NCBI GenBank assembly: GCA_947564645.1
Contig: CANOCU010000033.1
Coordinates: 1-38,200 of the forward strand
Direction: 5' to 3'
From: an uncultured Lachnospiraceae bacterium
Lineage (GTDB): Bacteria > Bacillota > Clostridia > Lachnospirales > Lachnospiraceae
Length of the DNA stretch: 38,200 bases
Shown here: positions 973 through 22,429 of the stretch, in pieces
Layout: each line of letters starts with the position of its first letter
Position numbering within the stretch: the stretch's first letter is position 1
Made by a program: the position numbers and the translations under genes
The notes under the pieces: model-generated
Database searches by the model: none
Told to the model about the DNA's origin: nothing
Seen by the model: only the letters and a program-made list of their open reading frames with translations

Positions 973-2529
973 CTATTCCTCCTTCCTTGCCAGAACCGCC
1001 ATCCCCGGATGCGCCGGCAGGGATACTCTCGTTCTGCCCACAGCGTCATGCATTACCGTCTCTCTCGTCATCTCCCACACATCGATGATCTCGATGCGGT
1101 ATCGGCCATCCTCCGGCAGCTGCAGCCACGTAAAGCAGGGGCAGGTCCGGCCGTAATAACGAAGCTGCCAGGTGTCCGTGAACAGCACCTTATGTACCTC
1201 AGCCATGATCCCCATCAGATTCTCTACAGGCGTACTTTCCATCAGTTTGTTGAAATGTCTGTCCGCCTCCGTCATTTCTTCTCCCTTTTTCCCGTTGGGG
1301 TTCGTATGCGGTCCGTGAACTTTTGCCCTGCCGCACCCCGGCAGCTTTTCCAACAGTTCCTTCAGGAAACGGATCCTCGGCTCGCTCTCTCCGTACAGCA
1401 CGCCTCCCTTACCCCACCAGAGTACCGCATCCCCCCGGTGGAAGGTTTCGCCATGGGTACAATACCCACCTCTGGTCACGGTCCACCAGAAGCGGTCCAC
1501 CATATCGAAAGCCGACAGATTGCCCCAACCGTATTCCAGAGTGCCCTCATAGCCGCACTCGTCGATCAAGACCGGCAGTTGATATTCCTTTTTCCAGACA
1601 GGTACCAGATCAATATTGCCACTCTGGATCGAGCAATGAGTCATCCATGCTTTCTTCGGGTACAGCTGCAGGATCTGATGGATGGAGATCAGGTGACGGT
1701 AGGGGTCCTCCTTCTGCAGCAGACAGCCATAAGCGTCCCAGTCTTCCGTCTTCTTGTCCATCAGCATCTCATATTCATTGGCAAGGCTCCACCAGACATT
1801 GTGATAAGCGGCCAGTCTGGCAATACAGTATGACACATAACTCATAGATGCCTCCTGTGTCAGATGCGCGAAGCCCCATTTATCATACGGATGAAAAAGG
1901 ATCAGATCCGCCTCGATCCCGAGCTCCCCAAGCTGGCGAAGACGCAGATCCAGATTATCCCAATAGGCCGGTACGATACGGTTCACATCCCAGCTGCCGT
2001 CCTCATCCTGCTCAAAGGGATAGACAGCAGGGTCTTCCTCGTTATAGGGCATATATTTAGGAAATAATAGCATACGCAATTTATTAAAGCACCTTTCCTT
2101 AAGTGTCTTCACCGTCTGCTCCTGCAGTTCCTCCGACTGATGCGTCCAGGCATAACAGGTTGTACCAAAAGGCAGAAATCGCGTTCCGTCCGCATAAACA
2201 AACCCATCCTCCTTCATCTGCACTTTCCCATGACATCCGTCCCCAGGCGCCGTGCAGGTAAATTTTCCTTCCACCGTAAGCGCTTCTGCCTCTCCGCTTT
2301 CTTCCAGACAGATCCGGTAATGATATTTCCCCGTCTGCTCCGGCATGATGCGGATCGCATAGATGCCTTCCCGTTTCCGGAAGGCAGAAATTATGTAAAC
2401 CGCTTCGGACGATTCCGTCATCTCTTCGCGTCGCATTGCAGTTACGGTGCAGCAGCCCGGCAGGACTGCCGTACACGCTTTATAGGCAAATTCCCTTTCA
2501 TAAATATGATATAAATTTACTTTTTCCAT
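973..2529 (-). CDS. DUF5060/DUF5605-type glycoside hydrolase (apiosidase-like barrel)
   Basis: Predicted cytoplasmic glycosidase of 518 residues without signal peptide. Residues 1-100 look like the beta-sandwich DUF5060 domain; about 105-400 look like a clan-A (beta/alpha)8 barrel related to DUF4038/GH140-like enzymes (DGFVYADGTRFLPFGTT opening); the last ~110 residues resemble the DUF5605 C-terminal domain. Likely catalytic acids are Glu252 in WWSLANEYE and Glu324 in PVLIDECGYEG, by analogy with clan-A enzymes (inference). The start at 2529 is chosen because it has the ribosome site GAGAGGAAGG about 8 bases upstream and leaves a 64-base gap to the upstream gene; a longer open frame to 2667 would overlap it. 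Last gene of the GH2-GH106-like operon. The exact sugar released is unknown; apiose, galactose or rhamnose side chains are possible. Confidence 0.75.
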   Translation of the reverse strand: MEKVNLYHIYEREFAYKACTAVLPGCCTVTAMRREEMTESSEAVYIISAFRKREGIYAIRIMPEQTGKYHYRICLEESGEAEALTVEGKFTCTAPGDGCHGKVQMKEDGFVYADGTRFLPFGTTCYAWTHQSEELQEQTVKTLKERCFNKLRMLLFPKYMPYNEEDPAVYPFEQDEDGSWDVNRIVPAYWDNLDLRLRQLGELGIEADLILFHPYDKWGFAHLTQEASMSYVSYCIARLAAYHNVWWSLANEYEMLMDKKTEDWDAYGCLLQKEDPYRHLISIHQILQLYPKKAWMTHCSIQSGNIDLVPVWKKEYQLPVLIDECGYEGTLEYGWGNLSAFDMVDRFWWTVTRGGYCTHGETFHRGDAVLWWGKGGVLYGESEPRIRFLKELLEKLPGCGRAKVHGPHTNPNGKKGEEMTEADRHFNKLMESTPVENLMGIMAEVHKVLFTDTWQLRYYGRTCPCFTWLQLPEDGRYRIEIIDVWEMTRETVMHDAVGRTRVSLPAHPGMAVLARKEE

Positions 2530-2593
2530 CTCCGTTTTCCTTCCTCTCAAACCATTGATCTTTCTTTTCACATTCACCTTTCCTGATGCCGCT

Positions 2594-5338
2594 TCATATT
2601 CTCTGATAACAGAGCATGACAGGCCCCAGCATCCCACCTGGCTCCAGAGTGTTATAGACATCCGCACTCATGCTCCGGCCAAATGCCGCCGTATCCGGCT
2701 GATCCGTATCTCTGGCCATGCCCGTCTTTACCTCGATTCGGATTCTGTTTTGTCCCTGCAGCGCATAGTCCCTGACGGCAAAACAGTATGGCGTATTCTG
2801 CACCGTATCCACATAATTTCCGTTCAGATACAGCGTACAGATTTCATACACCGCTCCCAAATACAATACATCCGGAACGACAGACCAGTCTGCTTCTGTC
2901 TCGTAAATCACTTTGCCGACATAATGCGGCGCGACTCCGGCTCCGTTGATATTGATAAGCTTTTCTGACCGAAAGGCCATTCCGTCCTGCAGTGTTATAT
3001 TCCAGACAGTCTTTAATTCTTCTACTTGATCATATATGGGGGCTTTCTGTATCGGCAAATCTATCGCTCCAACATTCTCCGTTTCCTCTACGGTATCCTT
3101 TTTCCTTTTCACATACAGTACCCCTGACTGCCACTCATCCAGGAAGAGTCTGACACTGCCTTCTCCGCTCTTACACACAGAACACATCTCCCGGATTGTC
3201 CGCCGCATCACATCCACAAAATAAATCTGCCCGAAATCATCATGGTCAACATACAGATCAATCTCAAACCACGCACCTTTGCCCTCATTCAGAATAAAAT
3301 AGAAATCGCCCTCTGTTCCGGTAAAATGCGCATAACGGATATCAGGGCAGTAAGTACGCAGAGAGAAATCCCGCCGTATCGTCCTGGCAAGTTCATCTGC
3401 GATCCGGTGCAATGGCACAACTTCTCCATAAAGATTCCGAATCCGTTCTCCTGTCTGCGCCGTCACTTTTGGCGTATAATCACAGTAAAATACCGGGAAA
3501 GCCGTTTCTTTCGCCAACGCCAGAAACTCCACAAATATACCGGAAACCGCATCACAAGCCGGAACCACGAGCGCCTCATAGCAGTTCCCGTTGACCACAA
3601 GCCTGCCGTTCTGCAAAGAAACGTTCTCCTGCCCTCCATCTGACAGCAGTTCTTCCAATACGTCCGACGGTATCACATCGTAACTGATCTGATGTCTTGC
3701 CAGTTCGCCGCCAGGTGTCTGGAACCGCTGGAAATGTCCTTGATACCATTCCGCTTCCGCATGATACAGGATTGCCACCCGAATGACCGGCTTCGTCCGG
3801 TGCAGCAGATGGCACATCCGGTTGACATACAGATTCTCCCGCCGGTTGCATGCTTCCTCCGCTCCAGGGATGAAGGGCGGCGCCGGTATCATTTCGTTGA
3901 TACCGTTCACCAATAAATGATCGTAGACGTACTTTCTCAGACGGGAACCGGCAATCGCCCCGTATACTGCGAAGACTTCGCAGAAGCTGCGCCCCTTTTT
4001 CTGCGGGTCAATATGCGCGGCGGAAGATGCCAGCTTGGCGATCCCATAGTGATAAAATTCCCCGTCTCCATCCGTATTTCCATACCATGCCTGAGGAAAA
4101 TCCTTCCCCGGCATCAGCTGCCCGCCAATCAGGTCAATGCCGGCCGCATCCTGGTGTGCCTGCATCCGGAAAAAATGAGCCGGTCCAGTAGCCAGACTGC
4201 AGTGCGTATTCTCATCCTCGAGACTATGCCCGATATACCATAGACCATGCTCTTTGCACCACTTATGCATTACTCCGTTGAAGGTTTCCTGCACCAAACG
4301 CGAAACCAGATCCATAAAGATGCATCTTATCCTGTGATACTCGCCTGTTCTTTGCATCCTGTCCGCCTTTGCCCTTACATTTCCACTCTGTTCTTCGTCC
4401 TGATTCCATAACAATGGCAGCACAAGGCGGTAGTCCTCTCCCATTTCATCCCGCCACATCTGTTCCAACTGTCTGCTCCAGGGAAGCGCCATGCTCTCCC
4501 CCTCCACATTACGGGTCGCTCCCGGCAGTACCGGCGTACAATACCGCCACAGATTCCCTATCTCCGCCTCGTCATAAAAGAACCCCAGCCAGGTGCTGCC
4601 CGCCGCATCCTTCAAATGCTCATAATGCGGTTCATAGATTGCCTTAATGTTCATGGCAACGGAATCAGGATCCAGCAGATTCATATAAAACATTCTTCCG
4701 CCATCGTTTCTTGTCTCAAAAATCACGAAGATACGCCAGATGCCTTCCGGAACATCCCAAAGCAGCAGTCCCTCCCTGACCGCTTCCGTCAAATCCACTG
4801 CGGTGTCCATATCCAGGCCGCTTTCCCTGCGTCGCAGTGCGACTACTGCATACAACCTGTCCCCGGTAAAGGGTCTTGCCTTGCCGAATCCATGCTCCTG
4901 ATCCGTACTGCGGACAGACCCCATCAGCTGTGAGATCAGAAAAGTACCGTCCGCAACCGGCCCTCGCACATCCAAATGCCGTTCTCCCAGATACAGCTTG
5001 TTGAGAGACATGTTCTCCTCTCTTTGCAGGTATCCGTCTGCCAGCCCTGTGGGAAAAGGCGCCGCATCCTGCATCATAAAAATCATATCCTGCTCTCTGC
5101 AGATCTCAGCCACCCATCTGATCCTGGTCCAGTACTGTTCCGAATTGAACGGCATAAAACTCTCATCCTCCGCTTCTCCATGCCACAACAAATTCATGGA
5201 ACGCACACCCACTCTTTTCAACTGCAGGACTCTTTCCCGGATCCGTTCATAAGAATCTTCTGCCGCTAACGACGTAAAAGGATGCAGATAATTCGGTATC
5301 TCTCTGTCTGTTAAAATTTCATATAGCGCTTGATCCAT
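2594..5338 (-). CDS. GH106-like alpha-L-rhamnosidase family protein
   Basis: 914 residues, no signal peptide, so probably acts on imported oligosaccharides. The N-terminal barrel contains GFFYDEAEIGN and WYIGHSLEDENTHCS, matching in style the two conserved acidic blocks of the large GH106-like glycosyl hydrolases. The C-terminal ~130 residues (GKVIYETEADWS, LYLGAVYEICTLYLNG) form a galactose-binding-like beta-sandwich, as in GH2 and GH106 proteins. Start 5338 has a purine-rich site (AAGGGAAGAGAG) upstream; the extra 18 codons to 5392 would run into the GH2 gene. It sits 37 bases after GH2 and 64 bases before the DUF5060/DUF5605 gene, so the three are probably cotranscribed. Rhamnose specificity is inferred from family and from the GH78 gene in the same locus; it could belong to a related unclassified family. 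Confidence 0.65.
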   Translation of the reverse strand: MDQALYEILTDREIPNYLHPFTSLAAEDSYERIRERVLQLKRVGVRSMNLLWHGEAEDESFMPFNSEQYWTRIRWVAEICREQDMIFMMQDAAPFPTGLADGYLQREENMSLNKLYLGERHLDVRGPVADGTFLISQLMGSVRSTDQEHGFGKARPFTGDRLYAVVALRRRESGLDMDTAVDLTEAVREGLLLWDVPEGIWRIFVIFETRNDGGRMFYMNLLDPDSVAMNIKAIYEPHYEHLKDAAGSTWLGFFYDEAEIGNLWRYCTPVLPGATRNVEGESMALPWSRQLEQMWRDEMGEDYRLVLPLLWNQDEEQSGNVRAKADRMQRTGEYHRIRCIFMDLVSRLVQETFNGVMHKWCKEHGLWYIGHSLEDENTHCSLATGPAHFFRMQAHQDAAGIDLIGGQLMPGKDFPQAWYGNTDGDGEFYHYGIAKLASSAAHIDPQKKGRSFCEVFAVYGAIAGSRLRKYVYDHLLVNGINEMIPAPPFIPGAEEACNRRENLYVNRMCHLLHRTKPVIRVAILYHAEAEWYQGHFQRFQTPGGELARHQISYDVIPSDVLEELLSDGGQENVSLQNGRLVVNGNCYEALVVPACDAVSGIFVEFLALAKETAFPVFYCDYTPKVTAQTGERIRNLYGEVVPLHRIADELARTIRRDFSLRTYCPDIRYAHFTGTEGDFYFILNEGKGAWFEIDLYVDHDDFGQIYFVDVMRRTIREMCSVCKSGEGSVRLFLDEWQSGVLYVKRKKDTVEETENVGAIDLPIQKAPIYDQVEELKTVWNITLQDGMAFRSEKLININGAGVAPHYVGKVIYETEADWSVVPDVLYLGAVYEICTLYLNGNYVDTVQNTPYCFAVRDYALQGQNRIRIEVKTGMARDTDQPDTAAFGRSMSADVYNTLEPGGMLGPVMLCYQRI

Positions 5339-5375
5339 AAACTCTCTTCCCTTCAAACACTTGTACTGCCCTGGG

Positions 5376-7826: not shown

Positions 7827-7847
7827 ACCAAAATCTTCCTCGCTTTC

Positions 7848-7882
7848 TATCGTTAACGACATTAGAAATTTCGTTTACTATA
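7848..7882 (-). promoter_or_regulatory. 35-bp regulatory element upstream of GH2, shared with the AraC promoter
   Basis: This 35-bp stretch, 22-57 bases upstream of the GH2 start, matches 22395-22429 upstream of the AraC gene at 31 of 35 positions, including a 16-bp identical block (7864-7879, AGAAATTTCGTTTACT). It contains the perfect palindrome TCGTTAACGA (7850-7859) and a GTAAACGA half-site on the minus strand. GTAAACG half-sites are typical of LacI/GalR-family operators and resemble CcpA cre boxes, but the binding protein is unknown. A possible -10 TATAGT lies at 7877-7882 on the minus strand. Confidence 0.65.
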
Positions 7883-7956
7883 TCTATTTGCCTCTCTCAT
7901 TTGCCCAGTTCCCAATACTGCATAAATTCTGTATTATGCTGCTTTATCCCCTTCCA

Positions 7957-9075
7957 TCAATCCGTTTTTACCCCCCCCCCGGCCTTTCTGGCCCTCTTCC
8001 GATAGTCTGAGGGCGTCTCGCCGGTATACTTACGGAACATCTGCGTAAAATTGGTAAAGTTATCGTAGCCCACCTTGGACGCCACCAATGTAATGGACAG
8101 ATCCGTATTCTTTAACAGCCTGCCCGCATACTCCATCTTCTGTTTCAGGACATATTCCTTGTAGCCGATCCCCATCTCCTTCCGGAACATCCGCGAAAAG
8201 TAATCTTCGTTCAGAAAGACGTATTTGGCTGCTTCCCGTCTGGAGATCATCCGGTCCATATTCTCTTCCAGATAGTGCAGGATATCCTGAATGCGCTCCT
8301 GTGCTGTATAGGATACTTCGTCCCCTTCCCTCTCCACCACAACACCGTGATACTGTCTGAGGCAGAAATCCACACCTCTGCACAGTTCTTCCATGGATGA
8401 ATAAGACTGCAGCATCTTTTCATAAGTAAAGCTACGCGTAAACAAGTCTTCCAACGTCTTATTCTGGGCGTAACAGGCGATAGAGCAGGCTTCCAGAAAT
8501 CTACGGATGATCCGCTGTCTGTAACCGTCCGTCAGATACCCCTCCCGCTCGGCATAGCGCAGAAGATTGACGATCTGATTCCTCACTAACACCGAATCCT
8601 TCCGTACCATCCATTTCCCCCAGGAAGCCGCCTCCGGCATGCTCAGTTCTTCCGGCATCCGATCCTCGAAACGGTCTCCCTGCTCCATGATCCGGTTGCG
8701 CATCTCCAGATGTTCCATGCAGCGTCTGATCACTTCCTCGATGTCCGGAATCTTGGCCGGCTGTAAGATATAATCGAAAGCGCCGTTATGAATGGCCTCC
8801 CTGGCGTAGGAAAAGTCTGCATGAGACGTGAGAAAGACACAGAGAATATAGGGATATTTCTCCATCTGCCACTTCTGCAGCGAGATACCGTCCTCCCCGG
8901 GCATCTCGATATCCGTCAGCATGATATCCACCGGCTGGGTATCCAGCACCTCTCTGGCCGCAGCCGCGCTGTCCGCCGTATAGACCTGCTCGATTCCCAG
9001 CTTCTTCCAGTCCACCAGTTTTACCATTGCCTTTAAGATTCTTTCCTGGTCATCCACAAGCAATATCTTCATCAC
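7957..9075 (-). CDS. YesN-like response regulator with AraC DNA-binding domain
   Basis: 372 residues. Receiver domain 1-120 with the acidic pair Asp8/Asp9, phospho-acceptor Asp55 in IMLTDIEMPG, Thr83 and Lys108. Residues ~120-260 are a helical linker, and ~262-366 contain two helix-turn-helix motifs of the AraC type (ISRREAAKYVFLNEDYFS; GYDNFTNFTQMFRKYTG). Starts with ATGATG, the first ATG overlapping the kinase stop by four bases, so translation is probably coupled. It likely controls the adjacent ABC importer and glycosidases in response to an external sugar. The last codons run through a G10 tract (complement of C10 at 7971-7980) giving KAGGGVKTD; a slip by one base would change only the extreme tail. 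Confidence 0.93.
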   Translation of the reverse strand: MMKILLVDDQERILKAMVKLVDWKKLGIEQVYTADSAAAAREVLDTQPVDIMLTDIEMPGEDGISLQKWQMEKYPYILCVFLTSHADFSYAREAIHNGAFDYILQPAKIPDIEEVIRRCMEHLEMRNRIMEQGDRFEDRMPEELSMPEAASWGKWMVRKDSVLVRNQIVNLLRYAEREGYLTDGYRQRIIRRFLEACSIACYAQNKTLEDLFTRSFTYEKMLQSYSSMEELCRGVDFCLRQYHGVVVEREGDEVSYTAQERIQDILHYLEENMDRMISRREAAKYVFLNEDYFSRMFRKEMGIGYKEYVLKQKMEYAGRLLKNTDLSITLVASKVGYDNFTNFTQMFRKYTGETPSDYRKRARKAGGGVKTD

Positions 9076-10822
9076 GATACCTTCCCGTTTTCTCTTCCGT
9101 TTTCCATCCCTACCGGCAGGATCAGCTCGCTGAACGCCCCGTCTCTGTTATCAAAATACCACTGCGCATCCTCGCCGTAATGGATCCGCAGCCGGTTTAA
9201 CAGATTAAGGATTCCCACACCGAATCCCTTGTCCGAGAGCATGTCTCCCTTCTGATTCAGAAGCGCAAGCAGCGCGCCGGGATATCCGGCACCGTTATCC
9301 CGCACGACTATGTCCAGGCTTTCGCCGTTCTCCCCCTTGATCAGCCGCACCTGGATCCGGATCTCCAGCGGCCGCTCCCGGTCCGTCTCCGTATATTTGA
9401 CAGAATTCTCCACGAAGGTCTGCAGCGCCAGGATCGGAATCTCCTGCTCTCTTACCGCCTCTTCCACCAGGATCATACAGGTGAGAGGCCGGGATGTGAG
9501 AAGCTTCTGCAGGCTGATATAGTTCTCCACGAACTCCCGCTCCGTCTGTACGGTGACAAGCGTCACGTCCCGCTGCAGAAGATAACGCAGATGCGTTGAC
9601 AGCCGCAGCAGAAACTGCTCCGCATTCCCGTACTCCTCCATCATCAGCATATAATAGATATTTTTCAGACAATTGGTGTAAAAATGCGGTGCGAGTTGCA
9701 GCTGCAGGAATTGCAGCTGTGTCTTCTGCCGCTCCAACTGCTCCTCATAAGTCCGGATCTTGTACTGGCCGATCTCCTTTAACATAAGCCAGACAGTCTG
9801 TCTTACATTTTCAATTTCCACGATCCTGTTGGGTGCGGTAAATTCCACTTCCCAGTCGCCCTTCCTGATCTCCCGAAGTGCCCTCGTCATATCCTCCAAC
9901 GGCTCTGAAAGCTGCTGATAAACAAACCGATACAAAGACAGAAGCCAGACCATCAGCAGCAACATCAGTACCGCCAGCAATAGATGCCACGGCTGCACAT
10001 ACAGCCAGAGACTGCTGGGCAGGATCTCCACCACGGCCATATCCTCCGTATCCAGCTTATGCAGATATACAAAATCATTTCCAACCCGATTCCGTCCCTG
10101 CCGCAGCGTCGCATAATTTATATCGGGATGCCCGCCGTCTTGTCCGCCTGTCCGGTAGAACTCTCCTTCATACACAATGCCGTAAGCTGCCTCGTTCTCC
10201 AACTGTTCCGGAAGCCCCTGCCGCTGACTGACACTGCCGCTGACCATGGCGCTGTTCCTTTTGATATAAACAGAGTAGAAAAGATCTTCCTCCGACTTCT
10301 GCACACCGTCCACATAAGAAACATGGAACTTTCCACAAGAAGACCCATCCTGCTGTTTTTCATAAAATTTTTCCCAATATTCCACAACATCTTCGTATCT
10401 GCGTAGGGAAGACTGTCAGCTGTAGAATACAGAACAGAATCTCCGCCGTCATAGTGTATGAACATACCGCTTAAGCAGGGTGTAGAATTCAGTTGTACCT
10501 GCAGCAGACTTTTCAGTTCATAGACATAACCGCACATTTCGGCCGCGGTCTGATAACTGCCGATCCCCTGGAAAGCTGCGCTCATAGAATAGACAGAGCC
10601 TGTCGCGTCACTAAGCTGCCCGATCGTATCCTGAAGTGTCTGAGCATAAGCCTGAAGGTCATTCAGCCTTCTTTGATTCTGGTTTTTCTGATAAGCCCCG
10701 ATCATGATCAGAAGAAAGATACCAAGCAGCAACAGGATCACCACGATAAATACAACAAGAAAAGCGAAAATCTGCTGTTTTAACCGGAACATCCTGGTCG
10801 GTCTTATCTTACCTTTTTCCAT
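9072..10822 (-). pseudogene. YesM-like sensor histidine kinase, split by a frameshift
   Basis: Two overlapping frames together make one kinase. The upstream frame gives a transmembrane helix (QQIFAFLVVFIVVILLLLG) and the start of the extracellular sensor domain, ending sensibly at STADSLP. The downstream frame continues with RRYEDVVEYWEKFYEKQQ, the rest of the sensor, a second membrane helix (WHLLLAVLMLLLMVWLL), HAMP, a His_kinase box (QLQLAPHFYTNCLKN) and ATPase motifs (QTFVENSVKYT, DNGAGYP, GFGVGILNLLNRL). The join falls at the CCC run at 10406-10408 (minus strand); one added C would restore a continuous frame of about 583 residues. Start 10822 (MEKGKIR) has an ATGAGG site; 10834 or 10891 are alternatives. 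Paired with the YesN-like regulator. Either truly inactivated or a one-base consensus error. Confidence 0.85.
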
Positions 10823-10929
10823 AATGAGCCTCATCTCTCTGTCTGACAGCAGGTCTTTCCGGACTTCTCCTCCAACCTGCTGTCCAAACATTTATTCCCT
10901 ATGGCATTTTTTACACCCCTGTGATCACT

Positions 10930-10974: not shown

Positions 10975-11862
10975 TTACCCCTTCACGCCTCCGATCACGA
11001 TCCCTTTCACAAAATATTTCTGCAGGAAAGGATAGATGATCAGGATCGGCAGTACCGCGATCACCGCGATACCCATACGGATGCCGACCTGCGGGATCTT
11101 CAGGTTTGCCGCCGCGGAACCGAGCATACTGGCATTTCTCGTAAGAAACTCGATATTATTGATCATATTATTGAGGATCATCTGGATCGTAAACAGACCC
11201 TGATCCGTCACATAGTACAGCCCGTTCATCCAGTCGTTCCAGTAACCGAGTCCCACCATCAGCACCAGCGTGACCACCATCGGCTTGGAGAGCGACAGCA
11301 CGATACTTGTCAGTATTTTCCGCTCACTGGCCCCGTCCAGCTTCGCCGCCTCGATCAGGGAATCCGGTATGCTGGATGAAAAGAAAGAACGCATCATGAT
11401 CACGTAGAAGGCGTTCATCATCAGCGAGGGCACGATCAGAGCGAAGATAGTATTCTTGATATGGAACGTATTTGCATACATCATATAGGTCGGCACCAGC
11501 CCGCCGTTAAACAGCATGGTAAAGAACAGGAAGAAGGATAAAAATCCCCGGTAGGGCAGATCTCTTCTTGAAAGCGGGTACGCATACAGAATCGTGAGTG
11601 TCAGGTTGCAGAGTGTCCCGATTACCGTAACAACGATCGTCATTCCATATCCCCGCAGGATCGTGTTCGCGCTTCTGATGATATAGCGATAGGTTTCCAG
11701 ACTGAATACCTCCGGGAAGAAGCTGTAGCCGTTCCTGGTCAGCGTCGCTTCCTCCGTCAGGGAAGCCATGACCATCAGCAGAAACGGGAGCACACAGGTC
11801 AGTACCAGAATCCCCATGAATATATGCATGATTGTCTGTTGCAGCTTGTCATGTTGAACCAT
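10975..11862 (-). CDS. ABC sugar transporter permease (CUT1, LplC/YtcP-like)
   Basis: 295-residue inner-membrane permease with about six membrane helices. The EAA loop that contacts the ATPase is visible as EAAKLDGASERKILTSIVLS (around residues 180-200). The C-terminal VKGIVIGGVKG is typical of LplC/YtcP permeases that serve complex-glycan oligosaccharide importers with YesMN regulation. Pairs with the LplB-like permease 72 bases upstream and the solute-binding lipoprotein. No ATP-binding subunit gene is present in the window; CUT1 systems of this class usually use a shared MsmX-type ATPase encoded elsewhere (known for related systems, inferred here). Confidence 0.93.
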   Translation of the reverse strand: MVQHDKLQQTIMHIFMGILVLTCVLPFLLMVMASLTEEATLTRNGYSFFPEVFSLETYRYIIRSANTILRGYGMTIVVTVIGTLCNLTLTILYAYPLSRRDLPYRGFLSFFLFFTMLFNGGLVPTYMMYANTFHIKNTIFALIVPSLMMNAFYVIMMRSFFSSSIPDSLIEAAKLDGASERKILTSIVLSLSKPMVVTLVLMVGLGYWNDWMNGLYYVTDQGLFTIQMILNNMINNIEFLTRNASMLGSAAANLKIPQVGIRMGIAVIAVLPILIIYPFLQKYFVKGIVIGGVKG

Positions 11863-11934: not shown

Positions 11935-12867
11935 CTAAAACAGCGCATTTTCTTTGTCAATCTTCGATACAACAAGGTTCGCGGTAAGTACAAGGATAAA
12001 TCCGCAGATGGACTGGAAGAAACCGGCAGCCGCCGACCGTCCCACATCATTTAACAGGATCAGGCTCTTGTAAACATACACGTCGATCGTCGTAGTCACG
12101 TCATATAACAATCCGGAGTTCATGGGCACCTGATAGAACAGGCCGAAATCGGAATAAAAGATTCTGCCCACGGCGAGAAGCGTCATCGTGATGATGGTAG
12201 GTTTCAGTCCCGGCAGCGTTACATGCCAGATTCTCTGCCATCTGTTCGCACCGTCCACCACCGCCGCCTCGTACAGCGAAGAGTCGATCCCGATCACCGT
12301 CGCATAATAAATGATACTGTTGTAGCCAAAGCTTTTCCACAGATTGACGAAGACCAGAATATAAGGCCAGTATTTCGGCGTCATGTACCAGTTGACCCTG
12401 CTGTGTAAGATTGAATTATTGATAAAGCCGTTATCCGTACTTAAGAAGGCAAATGCGATATAGCTTACGACTACCATGGAAACCAGATAAGGGATCAGGA
12501 TAAAGATCTGATAGATCTTCTTCGGCAGTTCCGCCCTAATCTCATTTAGGATAATGGCAACCGCAATGGCAAACACGGTGCCAAGCAGGATGAAAATAAA
12601 ATTGTAACCCAACGTATTCCGGATGATCATTCCCGCATCCTTCGTACTGAACAGGAATTTGAAATTGCTCAGCCCACTCCACGGACTGCTAGCAATCCCT
12701 TTGGAATAATCATATTTCTTGAATGCCAGGCTCAGGCCTCCGATTGGCAGGTAATTGTTGATCAGCAGATAGAGAATACCCGGCAGCATCATAAGATACA
12801 GTTCTCTGTGTCCCCACAGATTCTTTGCGATCCTCGGGCTGCCGCCTTTCTTTTTTGTTCCGTTCAT
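11935..12867 (-). CDS. ABC sugar transporter permease (CUT1, LplB-like)
   Basis: 310 residues with about six membrane helices; first helix ELYLMMLPGILYLLINNYLP near residues 22-45. The EAA loop reads YEAAVVDGANRWQRIWHVTL. The C-terminus (SKIDKENALF) is the usual LplB ending. Start 12867 has a strong site GGAGGTGG placed 4-11 bases upstream; the extra 46 codons to 13005 would run through the strong hairpin at 12906-12949 and have unusual composition, so they are rejected. Second gene after the solute-binding protein in the importer operon. Confidence 0.93.
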   Translation of the reverse strand: MNGTKKKGGSPRIAKNLWGHRELYLMMLPGILYLLINNYLPIGGLSLAFKKYDYSKGIASSPWSGLSNFKFLFSTKDAGMIIRNTLGYNFIFILLGTVFAIAVAIILNEIRAELPKKIYQIFILIPYLVSMVVVSYIAFAFLSTDNGFINNSILHSRVNWYMTPKYWPYILVFVNLWKSFGYNSIIYYATVIGIDSSLYEAAVVDGANRWQRIWHVTLPGLKPTIITMTLLAVGRIFYSDFGLFYQVPMNSGLLYDVTTTIDVYVYKSLILLNDVGRSAAAGFFQSICGFILVLTANLVVSKIDKENALF

Positions 12868-12905
12868 GCTCCACCTCCAGGTAAGATTGAGATTCCGATT
12901 GTAAT

Positions 12906-12949
12906 GAGAAGCAGGCAGTCGGCACATGTTCCCCGGCTGCCTGCTTCTC
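12906..12949 (-). other. Strong intercistronic hairpin after the solute-binding protein gene
   Basis: Perfect 13-bp inverted repeat: GAGAAGCAGGCAG (12906-12918) and CTGCCTGCTTCTC (12937-12949), with an 18-base loop whose ends can pair further. It sits between the lipoprotein stop and the LplB-like start and is not followed by a T-run on the minus strand. Such structures behind solute-binding protein genes commonly protect the upstream mRNA from 3' decay or partly block read-through, giving more binding protein than permease (established for MalE-like operons; inferred here). Confidence 0.7.
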
Positions 12950-13045
12950 TGTCCCGTTATGTATAAATACGCCTCTCTTCTTCTGCGGCAGCCTCTCTCT
13001 GTCAAACCGATCCGGCCGCAGAATATTTCTTTCTGTTAACCTTAC

Positions 13046-14608
13046 CTACTGTCCCGCAAGATAGGCGTCTAATTCCGTCTGTACCTTCTTGATCATCTCA
13101 TAGAAGCCGATCGACTCAAGCTCTGACTGGATGGATGGAAGCACGTCGTCCAAAGCTACGCTGCCGGTCTTGATGGGATGCAGATATTTCTCTTCCAGAT
13201 TCTTATAAGCCGTGATAAAATCTCCGTACTCCGACATGTCGAAGAAAAATCCAAATGTGGGAGATACTTTTACATTCTTATTCCACTCATCCACAATAGA
13301 TTTATAATCGTCTACCGGAGCATCAGCCTTAACCGGATTCAACAGATAATTCGGATAAGTCGCCGTCGCCGCGAATCCTCCATAAGGCTCGTTCTCTGCA
13401 GTCATTCCTTCCGGATATGCCGCACGTCCGTCTTCGTTGATTACATAGTGTTTGCCCTCAATACCAAAAGAAAGCAGTGTGTGCAGCCTGGCATCCGTAT
13501 ACAATGCGGAAAGCAGTGTAAACGCCTCGTCCGGGTGGGCGCTGTTGGAACTGATGCCGTACTGCAGGTTACCGATATCTGTCGGAATTGCCCTGGGCTC
13601 GATCAATACTGCCGAGGATACTGTATTGGGATAGAACATCTCCAGCGGATCAATGTCTGCATTGTGCAGGCACGCAAAAGCCGCTCCGGCCGTTACCATA
13701 CTGCTGCCCTCCTGCGTATTGCTGATGGCGTCCGGCATGATCAGGCCGTCATTGTACCATTTATTCGTATAGCTGCAGAATTCCCGGAAAGAATCCGTCT
13801 CAAAAATACTCTTTACTTCCGTGGAATCAATATCATTGGTATATGCAAAAGATGTGAGTCCAATACCTCCGATCCAGAGACTGCACCATGTCATATCATT
13901 GGTGGACTGGGGCACCAGCGCATAGATTTCCGGATGCGCCTCATGTACCTGGTAGAGTACTTCTCCCAGGCTGTCCATATCTTTAACGGACATAGGATCA
14001 ATCCCCAGTTCCTCCACAATTGCCTGATTCATGACCACTACTTCCTGCCCGCCGAACTGGTACTTTCTGGGAAGGCCGTACATACGTCCGCCCATGCTGG
14101 AAGATGTGATCTCTGCATCCGTGAAGCTGTTCTTCAATTCGTCAGAGGCACTTTCAAAGCGGTCCGTGATATCCAGAAGCTGGCCGTTGTTCACATAGTT
14201 GGACAACTGTCCGTTTCCGGTAAAGTAACAGGTCACATCCAGTTCGTCTGTGGTCATCGCCAGATTGATGGACTTCTCAAAATTACCCATCTCTATGTAG
14301 ACCAGCTTCGTCTGGATCCCATAATTCTCCGCCAAATGGGCATTGACAGCATCCTGTACTTCCGTAATGGCTTCTTCCGTGTACGGCGCCAGTGTCGGAA
14401 TATACAGAGAAACCGTCACCATATCCCCCGCATCAGCCGCTTTCGTATCCGCCGGCGCTTCCTCTCCTGCCGCTTCCTGCTCTTCGCTCTCCTGTGCCGG
14501 CGCCGTTTCTCCATCTGACGCTGCCGTGTCGCCGGAGCCGCCGCATCCTGCCAATAATCCAAGTGTCATAGCCGCGCACAACAGTGTCGCTACAATCTTC
14601 CTTTTCAT
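13046..14608 (-). CDS. Extracellular solute-binding lipoprotein (sugar ABC importer)
   Basis: 520 residues. Lipoprotein signal MKRKIVATLLCAAMTLGLLAGC with the lipidated cysteine at 22, followed by a flexible Ala/Glu/Asp-rich tether (about 23-65). The mature part has the type 1 large periplasmic-binding fold seen in LplA-like proteins (VTVSLYIPTLAPYTEEAI; GQEVVVMNQAIVEELGIDP; NSAHPDEAFTLLSALYTDARLHTLL). It captures the oligosaccharide at the cell surface for the two permeases downstream. Start 14608 has a textbook AGGAGGAAG site. The upstream gap carries a 12-bp inverted repeat around a possible -10, so the operon probably starts here. Ligand unknown, presumably a rhamnose-containing oligosaccharide given the neighbours. 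Confidence 0.93.
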   Translation of the reverse strand: MKRKIVATLLCAAMTLGLLAGCGGSGDTAASDGETAPAQESEEQEAAGEEAPADTKAADAGDMVTVSLYIPTLAPYTEEAITEVQDAVNAHLAENYGIQTKLVYIEMGNFEKSINLAMTTDELDVTCYFTGNGQLSNYVNNGQLLDITDRFESASDELKNSFTDAEITSSSMGGRMYGLPRKYQFGGQEVVVMNQAIVEELGIDPMSVKDMDSLGEVLYQVHEAHPEIYALVPQSTNDMTWCSLWIGGIGLTSFAYTNDIDSTEVKSIFETDSFREFCSYTNKWYNDGLIMPDAISNTQEGSSMVTAGAAFACLHNADIDPLEMFYPNTVSSAVLIEPRAIPTDIGNLQYGISSNSAHPDEAFTLLSALYTDARLHTLLSFGIEGKHYVINEDGRAAYPEGMTAENEPYGGFAATATYPNYLLNPVKADAPVDDYKSIVDEWNKNVKVSPTFGFFFDMSEYGDFITAYKNLEEKYLHPIKTGSVALDDVLPSIQSELESIGFYEMIKKVQTELDAYLAGQ

Positions 14609-14633
14609 TTCTTCCTCCTGTCTACCCATCTGC

Positions 14634-14687: not shown

Positions 14688-14759
14688 AAAGTAGCTGTTT
14701 TCAGACCTGGATTATCGATTTTATGACTTTTGCCCTTACACGTTCCCTTTTGCTTCCTG

Positions 14760-17143
14760 TCACTGCGGCACACCGTTAACCAGCACCTTCCAGTCGCTCA
14801 GGCCATCCCCGATCCTGACTGTTGGCGACCACCCGGCCGGCAGCAGAAGATCAATCGAAAGCATGCGCTCCCAGTCGTCCGCCGCCCATTTCATCAGGAT
14901 ATCGCCGTCGCAAGTCCTGACACTTCCCGCTGCCCATTTCAGGGCGCCGGGATGCGGGCTGACCACGACTGTCCTGTTCTTTTCGTCGGGAATGCCCAGT
15001 CCCAGGACGCCGCCCGTGAGAAATACGCCCGCCATGCCGTTGAAGCCGTGGCATCCGGAATGTGCATTGTAGTTCTCGAAGAAAGTTCCCGATCCTTCTC
15101 TTAATTCCGGCAGATAGACGTCCCTCATTTCTTCTAGCAGTGTATCGATCTTTCCCATCCTGTATAATACGTCAAACCGGATCATCAGTCCTATAAACAG
15201 ATTCGCCTTCGCGATATTGGGGTCGCTGCGCATTACGGGTGCTGTCCCCATCTCTTCCACAAACTTTCTGACATAAACGGGATCCTCCCTGTGAAATCCG
15301 CTCCAGAATTCCAGTGCAATGCCTCCCTCCGTAGCGTACCCGGTTCTGTGCAGAATTCCGTTTTCATAAACGGCGGCGTCTCCCTGTCTCCCCGATCCTA
15401 TGTCCGCCGCATCCATCTTCTCTATGACCGCCCGCATCTCCTGCGCCGCGCCGGTCCAGTCCCGCCTGTCATAAAGCGCTCCCAGTTCCTCCAGAATCCT
15501 AACGGCAAGACAGTTGTTGGGAATATTGACCGGATTCAGCGCCCAGTCTGCGTTGGACAAAGACCAGTCCACAAACTGCACGTCCATGCCCTCCAGCAGG
15601 CCGCTTTTTCCGCGAAGCATCAGCAATCCGTCTGCAAACATCTCCACCCGCGGATACACCTCCGCGAGAAACGCCTGGTCGCCGCTTCTCGCCGCATAAT
15701 CCGCAAGCTGCGCCATCAGCCAGAAGGACCAGTTCATAATGCCCACGTCAGACGGATCCTTCTTGCTGCCCGGATATACCTCCGGAAAAAAGCCGTTCTT
15801 CTTGACCGTTCCGTCGGTCAGCATGAAATTCCAGAGAAAATCCTTCTCCACCGCTCTGTCCCCGAACATCTGCCAGGCCGCCTGCGCGGTAAAGTAAGAA
15901 TCGCACAGCCATCCGCCCCTCTCCCGTTCCGGGCAGTCCATGAAAATATCCAGCGTATTAAACTTCAAGGTTCGCCGGGCGCCTTCATAGATACGGTTCA
16001 GGTCATTGTCGCTGCACGAAAATCCCACCGTACAGGTATCCGGATAAGAATAATCTATCAGTTCCGGTTTCCGGATCACCACCTCTCCTTTACTCCGGAT
16101 CATCAGCTTTATGTATCGGACCAGTTTGGGTTCCTGGGTGAGCAGCCGGTAGCTGCCCTTTTCCAGTTCATAATGCGCCAGATAGGTATTTGCTTCCACA
16201 AGTCCGCAAGCCGACTTGTGATCGGATGTGACCACGTCAAGTACCGTGCGCTCTTTACAGGTAAGACTGATCTCCACAAAGCCGAGCCTCGATACCGTAT
16301 CGGAATACAGCAGGTAAAAGGGCCTTGCCCCGGGCTTCACCGATACCGTGTCCGAAAGCGGCTCCCTGCTGTAACTGCCGCTGAAGGGATATTCCCTGCT
16401 GCCTGTCATCTGCGGCAGATACTCGTTTTCCGGCGGCAGCGCCGCATACCATTCCGGATTGACTGTTCTGGATAATACCATAGTGTCGTTTCTGCCGTTT
16501 CCCCGCCTGTTTCCCAGTCCCCGATATATTCGAAAGAACGGACCGCCGCCTTCTCATAAGTGGGATAGGGCGCTCTTCTTTCGAGAAACGTGACCTGCTC
16601 CGCATAAGGGCATATCTGCTCTCCTTTGCCGGCAAACCCGTCTATCCGCCACCTGCAGAAATCCGCTGTCAGTCTGTAAAACTCGATGATGCCGCGGCTG
16701 TGGCTCATAAGCTCCACATCGCAGATCCGGTACCGCAGTTCCCTCGCCGAAAGCCGTTCCCCCTCGCCGGATGCCAGAAGGACCTTTCCCGCTTCATCCA
16801 CTGCTTCCAGGCAGAACATTCCCTTCTCCAGCGTACAGTCATTAGAATATTTCTCCGGTTTATCGGCCTCCAGTACCTCCACCGCAATAGAAACCCGGCC
16901 TTTTGCCATAAAAGCCAGGCGGTCAACGCGGCAGTATCCTGCCGCCGTCCTCGCCGGTCCATTCGCTAGCAGTTCCTGATTCACATATACGCGATAGTAA
17001 CTGCGCGCCGCGACAAAAAGCGTTATCTTTTTCTCTTTCTCAGTACTGAAGCTTCCAAAAAATCCGACCAGATGATTGCAGGTACCCGATTCGGTTCCGA
17101 TCCATACCGGAACTGCCTTTTGAAATTGAAACATTGTTTCCAT
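14760..17143 (-). pseudogene. GH78 alpha-L-rhamnosidase, split by a frameshift
   Basis: Two overlapping frames together encode one GH78 enzyme. The 5' frame (from 17143) carries the N-terminal beta-sandwich and runs in register to SFEYIGDWETGG; the 3' frame resumes with GRNDTMVLSRTVNPEWY, followed by a second beta domain and the six-hairpin (alpha/alpha)6 catalytic domain with DIFMDCPERERGGWLCDSYF, the GH78 signature block with the likely general acid, and NWSFWLMAQLADY. The C-terminus (VVVSPHPGALKWAAGSVRT, LLLPAGWSPTVRIG) is the usual beta domain. The join lies at the G4 run (CCCC at 16501-16504 on plus); one more G would give one frame of 794 residues, a normal GH78 size. Start 17143 has AAGGAG in its leader. 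It would cleave terminal alpha-L-rhamnose. Loss of function or a consensus error. Confidence 0.85.
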
Positions 17144-17152
17144 GCTGACTCC

Positions 17153-19234: not shown

Positions 19235-19316
19235 CTCATAACCTCCTTAAATTCCGTCAGGCTAAAGCCGTCCGTATTCCTGCCGTATCGTCCGCCGCAT
19301 ATGTCAGACAGAATGC

Positions 19317-20693
19317 TTATTCCGTGATGTCCTGTGCATACTTTGCTCTTCTGGCCTCGTTTTCCTCCCGGATCTGTCCGATCTGTTTGTTTAAGGTATA
19401 GCCCTTCAGAGAGAGTGCAACAAGCACATAGAGCACCATGGGTACGATGCTGAACAACATACGGATCATAGTCATTGCACTGGCAGGCATCGTCGCCGCA
19501 TCCCCGGTGTATCCGCTCATGGACATCAGGACACCCAGTGCCGCCGCCCCAAACGAAGCGCCGATCTTACCGCCCAGTCCGACAAGACTGCTCATAGTGC
19601 CTTCCATCCTGTGGTTTCCCTTCCATTCATTGAAATCCGCACATTCAATGACGACCAGGGCGATCAGCATACTCGCCGGAACCGTCCCTGCACCCCACAG
19701 GATCGCAGCGATCGCAAGAAGCGCCACATTTCCGCCTGCCACAAAATTCAAGAAATAGCCGAAGGCAGATACAAGGAAACCAATCATCATCAATTTTACC
19801 GTAGAGAACTTAGCGATCAGTTTGGGGAAGAAAAGCGCCAGCGGCAGTGCCACAATCTGCGCTGCGGCCGTGATTCCCATAAGCCCTACATCCCCTACGA
19901 TATAAGTAAAGTAATAAGTCTGTACGCCCATATTCGTCACGAAATTGAATACAAACGTCATAAGCACAAGGATCAGAATATATTTATTCACTCTGATCAG
20001 TTTGAAAATATCGGATACTTTCAATTTCTCTGCATCTGCCGTTTCCACATCCACATCATAGATCTCCGGTACGAAAAGCATACGCAGCAGGCCAACTGCC
20101 GCCAGTGGCACTGCGAACATCAGGATCAGTCTGCTCCATCTGGCTCCGGACGTAGCGATCGAACCCATCAGCATTGGGAATGTGATATTGAAGACAACGG
20201 CTGCCAGCATGGTGATGATACTGCCATAGGAGGTCTGTTTCACGATCTGTCCGCCCTTAAAAGCGCGTACCATATATGGTGTACCGTTAGCGTTCAGGAA
20301 AGTATAACAGACGGAATTCGCCAGCGCATACATTACAAAGATCCAAATCAGTTTCGCCGTCATACTGAAGCTTTCCGGACAGGAGAACAACAGCCATGTG
20401 CATAGCCAGATCGCTACGATAAAGATTTCATAGGGACGTGCTTTCCCCCATCTTGTCTTCGTCCTGTCAACAATAAATCCCGCAAACATGTCTGTCACAC
20501 CGTCCAGAACCTTGCTGGCCACCAGAATGATACTGATATAAGCCGGTGACACCTTTAACGTATCCGTACAATAAATCATCAGAAATCCCAGCATCAATGT
20601 TACGATCGCCGAGGAAACCATCCTGCTGTTCCACAGAAGCAGTTTGCCAAACCCTAATCTTTCATCTTCATTTTTTTCCTTTGTCTTACCCAT
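19317..20693 (-). CDS. GPH/MelB-type sugar:cation symporter
   Basis: 458 residues with about 12 membrane helices of the glycoside-pentoside-hexuronide family. Diagnostic stretches: SKVLDGVTDMFAGFIVDRTKTRWGKARPYE (first 20 residues define the GPH D-x-x-T-D motif region) and YTFLNANGTPYM in the first half, and ALVVIECADFNEWKGNHRMEG near residue 365. Imports a sugar or glycoside by Na+ or H+ coupling. Start 20693 has GAGAAGGAAAG upstream. First gene of the operon controlled from the conserved promoter at 20847-20940; followed after 82 bases by the alpha/beta-hydrolase. Together with the ABC importer it gives the locus two different uptake routes. Confidence 0.92.
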   Translation of the reverse strand: MGKTKEKNEDERLGFGKLLLWNSRMVSSAIVTLMLGFLMIYCTDTLKVSPAYISIILVASKVLDGVTDMFAGFIVDRTKTRWGKARPYEIFIVAIWLCTWLLFSCPESFSMTAKLIWIFVMYALANSVCYTFLNANGTPYMVRAFKGGQIVKQTSYGSIITMLAAVVFNITFPMLMGSIATSGARWSRLILMFAVPLAAVGLLRMLFVPEIYDVDVETADAEKLKVSDIFKLIRVNKYILILVLMTFVFNFVTNMGVQTYYFTYIVGDVGLMGITAAAQIVALPLALFFPKLIAKFSTVKLMMIGFLVSAFGYFLNFVAGGNVALLAIAAILWGAGTVPASMLIALVVIECADFNEWKGNHRMEGTMSSLVGLGGKIGASFGAAALGVLMSMSGYTGDAATMPASAMTMIRMLFSIVPMVLYVLVALSLKGYTLNKQIGQIREENEARRAKYAQDITE

Positions 20694-20840
20694 TTGCTTT
20701 CCTTCTCTCCTTTCCCTGTCCGATCCCTGCAGGATCCCTTCAACATTTTCTTCCCTCCCGGCTGTTCAGACCGAATCCTTCCGGATGCCTGCTGCACTGA
20801 ATTGCTTTTGCTGTCCGAACCGCCCGGATCGTTATCTGCT
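20694..20840 (-). other. Long leader of the sugar transporter mRNA
   Basis: About 150 bases separate the predicted -10 (20847-20852) from the transporter start. The stretch has small dyads (for example GATCC around TGCA near 20725-20745) but no recognised riboswitch. A short minus-strand open frame from 20848 across this leader has basic, low-complexity composition and no clear ribosome site; it is not called as a gene. Confidence 0.35.
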
Positions 20841-20940
20841 GCATTCATTATAAGAGATGGTCCTGACCAAACAGGTATCCGTTTTCGCTCTTTTGTATCC
20901 TTTTTATCCAGAATCAGCCATCGTATTCAATTTGGATATA
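20841..20940 (-). promoter_or_regulatory. AraC-type activated promoter of the sugar transporter operon
   Basis: On the minus strand a consensus -10 TATAAT lies at 20847-20852, but there is no TTGACA-like -35 17 bases upstream (CCTGTT instead), as expected for an activator-dependent promoter. Upstream are GGATAC/GGATAA repeats and an AT-rich block (TATCCAAATT). The whole 100 bases align without gaps to 27265-27364 at about 67 of 100 positions, with long conserved blocks near the -10 and in the upstream boxes. The AraC protein encoded just upstream is the obvious candidate activator. Confidence 0.7.
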
Positions 20941-20972
20941 GGATAGCCAAAAATTGTACCTTCCTTTGTCGT

Positions 20973-21001
20973 AAAAAAAGGGAGTGACCAAACGTCACTC
21001 C
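20973..21001 (-). terminator. Intrinsic terminator of the AraC gene
   Basis: Stem GGAGTGAC (20981-20988) / GTCACTCC (20994-21001) with a five-base loop, followed on the minus strand by seven T (20973-20979). It separates AraC transcription from the transporter operon, supporting an independent promoter for the latter. Confidence 0.85.
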
Positions 21002-21037
21002 TGTTACAGCCCCATATACCCTTCCGCCTGCTGCCGC

Positions 21038-21103
21038 TTACCGCACAAATCCCTGCACCCTTCTGATCCATGCCACAGGGTCAATTTCCTCTTTCAGTCT
21101 CAT
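21038..21103 (-). pseudogene. Truncated small partner gene overlapping the AraC stop
   Basis: A 21-codon frame starts with an ATG overlapping the AraC stop by four bases (ATGA) and has GAAGGAGAACAGGC as ribosome site. Its peptide MRLKEEIDPVAWIRRVQGF lines up with MRLRDGIDLVAFIKEVKTC, the start of the 76-residue small protein at 26914-27144. It then hits TAA, and the rest of the family sequence is not found before the terminator. So this looks like a cut-down remnant of a conserved AraC-small-protein pair, although translation of the short peptide is still possible. Confidence 0.6.
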
Positions 21104-22356
21104 GCCTGTTCTCCTTCCTTTCCGATCCTGTCCCTGTATGCGGCGGGCGTCATTCCCACAACCTCCTGGAACACCCTGCTGAAATAATTTCTCGTCCCGA
21201 ACTGCAGCGTGTCACTGATCTCCTGAATACTTTTCCCCGACGTCATCAGCGCTATCTTGGCGTACTCAATCCGTGCCTGCTTGATATAATCTGAGACTTT
21301 GATCCCCATCTCCTTATAGAACTTTCTCGTGAAATAATAAGTAGCATAGCCCATCTGCGCGGCAATCTCGTCCACGTCCAGCGGTTTCGTCACATTGGCC
21401 CGGATGTAATCACAGCATTCCTGAATCGTCTTGGAGATTAACGGATTCTCCCTGCCGTCATGAACACGCCTCACATAGGCGTCCAGCATTTCCGCATTGA
21501 GGTTTTTCAGCTTCGTAACCGTATCCATCCGCTCAATCTCCGTGTGATACTTTACTTCCATCTCCTTCGCCGTCTTGATCGGCATACCTCCCTGTATCGC
21601 CGCCCGGCAGCACAGGGAACAGAAGACCAGCATCTCATTCTTAACGTCCCGCAGCGTATTACCGGAGACCGGTGTCAACTCGCTCTCGAAATCCTGCCGT
21701 CCGTCATAAATCTCCCTGTAATTCAGATTGCCGTCCGTCACTGCCTTAAGCAGCAACATTTCCCCGTTCATGACACGTTCCGGATCATTCACCATGGCAA
21801 ATGCCGTCCCTTCCTCCTCTTCCACAAACTGTTTCGTCCGTTCATCCTGAAAAAGAAAATCCACCGGCAAAATTCTCTCCGCCGTCAACGTATAATGCAG
21901 CATCTTGACATACTGATTCATCATTGGCAGCGTCACTACCGGCACCATAGCCAGCATTCTCGTCAATTGCCGCCGCAGAAAGACAGAAGATATCCTTTCC
22001 CGCAGGGAATCCTCGATGTATTTGACCGAAGTCTTGCTCAGAAACATGGGACCCATCAGCACCCGGCATAACCACATCCCTTCAGATATCATATCCTCCG
22101 CCACCCATACCAAGCCAATAGGATCACTCAGGACCACCGGCCTGTCCCACTTTCTCTGATCTTCATAGAGAAAATCCAGGCAGTCGCCAAGTTCCAGAAA
22201 AGACCAAATCTCTTTCTCATTCATGCAGGTAGAATAATATAATTCCCTGTTTGATCCCAGGCTCCACATCGCAAGATCCGCCCCGGCGAAAACATTCGCC
22301 GCCAGAAACCGGCCTCTCACTTCCACCGCAAATTCATCTACGTCTATTTTCTTCAT
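21100..22356 (-). CDS. AraC-family transcriptional activator of the glycan locus
   Basis: 418 residues. Residues ~1-300 form a large, cytoplasmic sensory/linker region (no membrane helix) of a type common in Lachnospiraceae AraC proteins; 308-412 contain the two helix-turn-helix motifs (LDVDEIAAQMGYATYYFTRK and IQEISDTLQFGTRNYFSRVF) ending in EVVGMTPAAYRDRIG. Start 22356 is preceded by GGCGGAAAG. It has its own terminator downstream and the 35-bp shared element upstream (22395-22429). By position it most likely activates the GPH transporter-esterase-GH78 operon through the promoter at 20841-20940. Inducer unknown, probably a rhamnose-derived sugar. Confidence 0.92.
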   Translation of the reverse strand: MKKIDVDEFAVEVRGRFLAANVFAGADLAMWSLGSNRELYYSTCMNEKEIWSFLELGDCLDFLYEDQRKWDRPVVLSDPIGLVWVAEDMISEGMWLCRVLMGPMFLSKTSVKYIEDSLRERISSVFLRRQLTRMLAMVPVVTLPMMNQYVKMLHYTLTAERILPVDFLFQDERTKQFVEEEEGTAFAMVNDPERVMNGEMLLLKAVTDGNLNYREIYDGRQDFESELTPVSGNTLRDVKNEMLVFCSLCCRAAIQGGMPIKTAKEMEVKYHTEIERMDTVTKLKNLNAEMLDAYVRRVHDGRENPLISKTIQECCDYIRANVTKPLDVDEIAAQMGYATYYFTRKFYKEMGIKVSDYIKQARIEYAKIALMTSGKSIQEISDTLQFGTRNYFSRVFQEVVGMTPAAYRDRIGKEGEQA

Positions 22357-22394
22357 GTATTCTTTCCGCCTGTTCTGCTTGTTTCAAAAACACA

Positions 22395-22429
22395 TATCGT
22401 AAACGACCTCAGAAATTTCGTTTACTGTA
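22395..22429 (-). promoter_or_regulatory. 35-bp element upstream of AraC, copy of the GH2 operator
   Basis: Matches 7848-7882 at 31 of 35 positions. Here the inverted pair GTAAACGA (22399-22406) and TCGTTTAC (22418-22425) is perfect with an 11-base spacer, i.e. 19 bases centre to centre. It lies 39-73 bases upstream of the AraC start. Likely the binding site of one common regulator, LacI-like or CcpA-like in appearance; no LacI-family gene is present in the window. Confidence 0.65.

Follow-up and report, generated by a model that had tools for sequence, protein, structure and literature searches.

Tannases are marked by a CS-D-HC motif, in which a Cys pair lies beside the Ser and the His, and MHETase is a member of the same family, PF07519. 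In Bacillus and its relatives, pectin oligosaccharides are imported by YesMN/Lpl-type systems. In the available part of a report on Lactobacillus jensenii, an alpha-rhamnosidase, a DUF4038/DUF5060 protein and membrane transporters form a cluster flanked by an alpha/beta-hydrolase and MFS transporters (PMC10711310). GH3, GH39, GH78 and GH106 enzymes of Sphingobium have been applied to steroidal saponins, according to the main text of a second report (PMC10653915), and an early structural study, in the portion available, ties a PF13204 protein to rhamnosidases through gene context (PMC4032388).

Here we describe a locus that resembles these systems in part, from a member of the Lachnospiraceae that probably lives in the gut. 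The window, by which we mean the whole stretch of 38,200 nucleotides that was analysed, is the entire contig 33 of a 4.15 Mb genome in 140 contigs, so genes past the contig ends are out of view. Family searches placed 12 genes on its minus strand between 973 and 22356 (Table 1), equal to 14 ORFs with the GH78 and histidine kinase genes each counting as two. The order and common strand of these genes, proposed in a preliminary description of the sequence, were confirmed; the locus is real and coherent, and its parts are mostly known.

Organisation of the locus

Table 1. Genes of the locus, with their positions in the window and the evidence for each assignment
Gene product	Coordinates	Strand	Evidence
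Apiosidase-like and DUF5605 glycosidase	973..2667	-	PF13204 E 7e-18, PF18310 E 7e-14
Remote GH106-type (alpha-L-rhamnosidase superfamily) enzyme, 932 aa	2594..5392	-	PF17132 21.4 bits, cut-off 29
GH2 beta-galactosidase-like enzyme, 828 aa	5376..7862	-	PF18565, PF02836, PF16355, PF00703, PF02837, each above cut-off
AraC-type response regulator, YesN-like	7957..9075	-	Response_reg and HTH_18
Sensor histidine kinase, YesM-like, frameshifted (9072-10385 and 10118-10891)	9072..10891	-	PF06580
ABC permease, LplC-like	10975..11862	-	PF00528
ABC permease, LplB-like	11935..13005	-	PF00528
Lipoprotein-type sugar-binding protein (DUF3502)	13046..14629	-	PF12010, PF01547; N-terminal LLAGC
GH78-type alpha-L-rhamnosidase, frameshifted (14760-16481 and 16406-17143)	14760..17143	-	PF17389 78.9 bits
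Tannase/feruloyl-esterase-superfamily hydrolase (most likely), PKD-like tail, 693 aa	17153..19234	-	Transitive homology; putative triad Ser153, Asp484, His521
GPH-type cation symporter	19317..20693	-	PF13347 (MFS_2) E 1e-43
AraC-type activator, weak PocR-like sensory region	21100..22356	-	HTH_18; PF10114 below cut-off

The transport and regulatory genes largely agree with the preliminary description. Its LplB/LplC-type importer was recovered as two PF00528 permeases with a DUF3502 binding protein, and no ABC ATPase was found among the window ORFs scanned. The GPH symporter scores well above the cut-off of PF13347 and below that of TIGR00792 (201.6 vs 231.35 bits), and the AraC activator was confirmed by its HTH_18 match. 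Both members of the proposed YesMN-type pair are present, but the kinase is split by an apparent frameshift; the intact 573-aa kinase of a relative (L001) matches the two window pieces in frames 3 and 1.

Among the glycosidases, the GH2 enzyme stood as described, with five GH2 domains above cut-off, and its closest solved chains are 7rsk and 6b6l. The GH78-type gene scores above the PF17389 cut-off (24.5 bits), but it is broken by an apparent frameshift into two overlapping ORFs of 245 (16406-17143) and 573 residues (14760-16481) in different frames; a single GH78 ORF in locus L043 gives weak matches to both, in frames 1 and 3 (E 0.002 and 8e-12). The GH106-like label survives as a remote relationship: the 932-aa protein is itself under the PF17132 cut-off, but two of five relatives pass it (L040, 43.1 bits; L044, 32.3 bits; L042, L045 and L046 are below), and L040 aligns with the window protein across most of its length (28% identity, E 3e-106). 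In L042, a single 965-aa ORF (L042:4013-6907) combines an AraC-type HTH with the sub-cut-off GH106 match, a possible regulator-glycosidase fusion or chimera. For the enzyme first described as DUF5060/DUF5605, DUF5060 went undetected, whereas PF13204 and PF18310 were detected. It is apiosidase-like by name, PF13204 supplying the name only and GH140-type apiose release being putative; its sole strong match among solved chains, 4n0r (E 3e-84), is titled 'putative glycoside hydrolase'. Its ORF overlaps the adjoining gene by 74 bases, and for this reason Met47 (2529) may be the true start. Across the whole genome, the GH78 domain finds matches in nine places, and L-rhamnose isomerase is encoded as well, so rhamnose use does not depend on this locus alone.

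Beyond the locus, the window encodes a 158-aa Cu/Zn superoxide dismutase (22687-23163, plus strand; PF00080, E 5e-28), by eye without an evident signal peptide, in a host that is a probable anaerobe. A 1093-aa protein (27494-30775, minus strand) has no Pfam match at E<=0.01; by eye, its start is signal-like, it contains transglutaminase-like motifs and its C-terminus has a membrane stretch. At 38148-38200 (plus strand), a tRNA match is interrupted by the contig edge, and ARAGORN gave none.

The 693-residue hydrolase

The preliminary description called this protein an alpha/beta-hydrolase acting on acyl groups. In Pfam, at E values up to 10, it matched PKD domains but neither an alpha/beta-hydrolase family nor PF07519, and by its own score it is not a PF07519 member. 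A PDB search returned only collagenase fragments, aligned with the PKD-like tail, plus chains of the GlmU type, none of them better than E 0.13. Its relatives nevertheless connect it to the tannase/feruloyl esterase superfamily, and in this form the acyl-hydrolase claim was retained. The relative in L001 is 90% identical over 693 residues. Eight plasmid records also match, with full-length relatives of 30-43% identity in Novosphingobium, Spirosoma, Alteromonas, Sphingobium, Caulobacter and Croceicoccus, spanning Alphaproteobacteria, Gammaproteobacteria and Bacteroidota, and a partial relative in Mycolicibacterium. The Caulobacter protein aligns with the window protein over its full length (32% identity, E 5e-76) and passes the Tannase cut-off (41.0 vs 29.8 bits); its best match among solved structures, a weak one, is an MHET hydrolase (E 0.023). 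The Sphingobium relative is below the cut-off, and among aligned family members 6 of 18 match Tannase at E<=0.01 and 12 do not.

In profile comparisons, the C-terminal half matched one tannase at 87% probability, with D484 and H521 facing the tannase Asp and His, and the region of the nucleophile (S153) matched three tannases at 76%; three unrelated control proteins or profiles, including another alpha/beta-hydrolase, gave 0.1-0.2%. Taken alone, the probabilities of 76-87% are suggestive. An earlier comparison that reached 100% was discounted, because one row of its tannase set (L053:14123-16216) is itself a member of the hydrolase family (29% match), and the three-tannase set was used instead. 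The Ser, Asp and His of the putative triad, at positions corresponding to tannase residues, show no variation in either alignment of the family (14 of 14 and 18 of 18 members). The Cys pair is missing: G152 is invariant, and an Asp follows the His in the window protein. This absence is not decisive, because the pair, present in two of the three tannases compared, is missing too in L047, a 240-bit tannase. AlphaFold2 models built from 13 rows were of low confidence (mean pLDDT 52.4 at full length and 48.3 for residues 1-575). Viral contigs scanned with a profile of the family contained no relative, and keyword searches of one open-licence library returned no paper that we recognised as describing it. 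As judged from these comparisons, the protein is most likely a branch of the tannase/feruloyl esterase superfamily that has no name, and most likely works as an esterase of that superfamily.

Genomic neighbours, distribution and cellular location

The comparison covered 21 Lachnospiraceae/Clostridia loci, namely that of the window, 13 from a first search for relatives and seven from a second set. In the first search, L009 and L014 were merged (one isolate name, complementary gene parts) and L015, drawn in by a 52-residue match, was excluded; the near-copies L011 and L012, L013 with its partly matched hydrolase, and L037 and L001, apparently from one genome, were kept in the count. A neighbour was called at >=70 bits to a reference protein, the window row being entered by hand from family matches, and absences are weak because several loci lie on short contigs. 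GH3 was the commonest enzyme partner (16 of 21 loci). GPH symporters were found in 14 loci, AraC regulators in 13, DUF5605 enzymes in nine (a tenth, in L004, is a fragment), ABC importers in eight, GH78 in seven, kinases and GH43 in six each, response regulators and GH2 in five each, GH106-like enzymes in three and GH42 in one. In L007, from Mediterraneibacter glycyrrhizinilyticus, the hydrolase is accompanied by GPH, AraC, DUF5605 and GH78 genes. L039 had no reference partner above the cut; there, a gene of the carbohydrate acetylesterase type (PF03629) adjoins the hydrolase. The gene set is therefore conserved in part: the hydrolase, GPH and AraC genes mostly travel together, but GH78, GH2 and GH106-like genes vary. 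No GH3 match occurred among the window ORFs scanned by family. With GH78 or GH106-like genes in nine of 21 loci, neither in the sequence covered of the other 12 (some on short contigs), GH3 the leading enzyme partner and the window's own GH78 frameshifted, the earlier label of a rhamnoside-focused locus is too strong.

The hydrolase was found in 8 of 397 genomes of the family, a count that omits relatives missed in the first pass of the search, and in 4 of 77 of the genus, one of them a 53-position stop-containing match; both counts include its own genome, which was the only one in a phylum-wide sample (1 of 398). Since no other genome of that sample matched whereas named plasmids of other phyla do, the family is patchy and not confined to Lachnospiraceae. 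One genome of the same genus (G419) has two copies, L037 (G419:C11) and L033 (G419:C17), and the L037 copy, 50% identical to the window hydrolase, lies in a different context with GPH, AraC, GH43 and GH2 genes. All eight hydrolase genomes hold DUF5605 relatives (E<=1e-40), whereas in the family sample as a whole 46 of 397 do (P 1.8e-8, or 1.6e-7 without the own genome). This co-occurrence is partly confounded, because glycosidase-rich genomes may hold many such genes independently; less so are the same-contig distances, the two genes lying 2.1 to 16.2 kb apart on one contig in five of the eight. A close GPH symporter (E<=1e-100) is present in three of the eight against 8 of 397 (P 3e-4, or 0.005 without the own genome).

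Far from the Lachnospiraceae, the Novosphingobium locus L049 has the hydrolase with GH106 (760 bits) and GH39, the Alteromonas locus L051 has GH78 and two annotated TonB receptors, and the Sphingobium locus L055 has GH115 and GH36, together with ORFs that by eye are acyl-CoA dehydrogenase-like and Rieske-like. Annotated tannases stand beside the hydrolase in Caulobacter (L052) and Croceicoccus (L053), one of the two in Croceicoccus being a hydrolase-family member, and P450 and SDR genes are annotated in L053 and in Mycolicibacterium (L054). No glycosidase is annotated within the stretches of Spirosoma (L050) and L054, and the reference glycosidases had no match in L050, L052, L053 or L057, a second Novosphingobium place. 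The rhamnosidase linkage recurs outside Lachnospiraceae, without being universal.

A tree was built from 25 rows. All but one of its 17 Lachnospiraceae/Clostridia members group together (support 95/95), these 16 being a clade only if the root falls outside them. A signal-like N-terminus was seen in none of these 16 vs five of the nine other rows; the remaining four (L050, L052, L053 and L053b) have no clear signal-like stretch. L043, among the five, lies outside the 16 on a very long branch. Its member (L043:8090-10786) combines the signal-like start with a PKD domain and BspA-type LRR_5 repeats, in a locus that holds GH3, GH78, GH43 and an ABC importer. The tree suggests that cellular location changed, in one direction or the other, between the 16-member group and the remaining rows. 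Within the locus, a hydropathy heuristic, not SignalP, showed no signal-like stretch in the enzymes: their best 10-residue segments remain under 1.7, whereas the binding protein, permeases, kinase and symporter reach 2.3-4.0. Both the absence of signal peptides from the enzymes and the intracellular degradation after uptake that had been proposed at the outset agree with these results and with the signal-free N-termini of the 16-member group, and the hydrolase appears to be cytoplasmic and coupled to import in Lachnospiraceae.

Candidate substrates and relation to known systems

The enzyme set fits acylated small plant glycosides or oligosaccharides of pectin and arabinogalactan, and since, of the transporters, the GPH symporter accompanies the hydrolase most steadily (14 of 21), we lean with modest confidence towards the small glycosides. 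We give an even chance to an import-first locus for the use of acylated plant glycosides, in which the ester would be cleaved in the cytoplasm. The conjugate would enter the cell through the GPH symporter, the Lpl-type ABC importer or both, and there the PKD-tailed enzyme would remove the ester-linked acyl group by a Ser-Asp-His mechanism; the apiosidase-like/DUF5605, GH2, GH78 and GH106-like enzymes, with GH3, GH43 and GH42 in relatives, would then strip the sugars, and the AraC protein and the two-component pair would sense the substrate. This reading starts from the superfamily placement through transitive homology, the invariant putative triad and the recurrent neighbours, and adds to them a predicted esterase activity, cytoplasmic location, substrate and order of steps. 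Against it stand the missing Tannase match of the protein itself, the low-confidence structure models, the frameshifted GH78 and kinase genes, the GH3 not found in the window, the 12 of 21 loci in which neither GH78 nor a GH106-like gene was seen and the close GPH symporter in only three of the eight hydrolase genomes. A bolder version, which we consider unlikely, holds that a tannase-superfamily esterase, often exported in relatives, is cytoplasmic here and coupled to an apiosidase-like glycosidase and to a GPH symporter dedicated to it, acylated conjugates entering whole and being de-esterified inside. If this were true, the conjugates would be saponins or phenolic glycosides, perhaps carrying sugar chains in ester linkage, and both the sugars and the acyl acid would be kept private.

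A locus for pectin or arabinogalactan is, by our estimate, somewhat unlikely; in it, the ABC importer would bring in oligosaccharides of rhamnogalacturonan or arabinogalactan, and the hydrolase would remove acetyl or feruloyl groups from them. The window does hold an Lpl-type importer and a two-component pair, ABC-importer genes recur in 8 of 21 loci, and these enzyme families are also used on pectin and arabinogalactan. Beta-galactosidase-type GH2 and GH42 enzymes occur, and the one GH43 tested (L002) matched chains named beta-glucanase (6eug, best), which we take to be a GH43_24 exo-beta-1,3-galactosidase, and galactan 1,3-beta-galactosidase (7bys); the nearest chains of the one GH3 tested (L003) are named beta-xylosidase. 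However, no polysaccharide lyase, GH105 or GH28 was matched by the scanned window ORFs, and the GPH symporter is a steadier partner than the ABC importer. As a special case of the import-first reading, the substrates might be saponin-type terpenoid glycosides, the hydrolase cutting an acyl ester or the glycosyl ester between sugar chain and aglycone. The pairing of the hydrolase with GH106 and GH39 in Novosphingobium recalls the Sphingobium GH3, GH39, GH78 and GH106 enzymes tested on steroidal saponins, and the acyl-CoA dehydrogenase-like and Rieske-like ORFs and annotated P450 and SDR genes of the distant loci point the same way. Yet in the Lachnospiraceae loci, whose other ORFs were searched by family in part, we noticed no genes for aglycone degradation, and the words 'esterase' and 'tannase' are missing from the main text of the Sphingobium report (PMC10653915), and we regard this case as decidedly improbable. 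That the locus is decayed or mis-assembled here and not a working unit, which would be compatible with any substrate, seems to us quite unlikely: two frameshifts lie about 6 kb apart and gene content differs among relatives, but eight of the ORFs for enzymes and transport are long and uninterrupted, and the hydrolase is 90% identical to that of L001 over 693 residues.

Under the import-first reading, a family without a name gains a testable catalytic hypothesis and a set of partners, and the locus offers candidates for the genes with which anaerobes of the gut may break into acylated plant glycosides, which would have a bearing on the metabolism of plant drugs and foods. With the YesMN/Lpl-type pectin importers the locus shares two LplBC-type permeases, a DUF3502 binding protein and a YesMN-like pair; unlike them, it has no lyase or GH105 match and has a GPH symporter as well. 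The hydrolase resembles the tannase/feruloyl esterases of PF07519 in its transitive full-length homology, its corresponding Ser, Asp and His and a similar region before the nucleophile, but it has no PF07519 match of its own, a PKD-like tail, no Cys pair and a probably cytoplasmic location. The L. jensenii cluster, in its available description, also has a rhamnosidase and transporters, with DUF4038/DUF5060 and a flanking alpha/beta-hydrolase, whereas it is bordered by GH1 and GH28 and includes an isomerase (PMC10711310). In the main text on Sphingobium, GH3, GH78 and GH106 enzymes are likewise combined on plant glycosides, but that system is proteobacterial and no esterase or tannase is named there (PMC10653915). 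Seen against these systems, the locus appears to vary a familiar theme rather than to be new in kind, and its interesting component appears to be the PKD-tailed branch of the tannase superfamily, which is without a name and apparently cytoplasmic in Lachnospiraceae.
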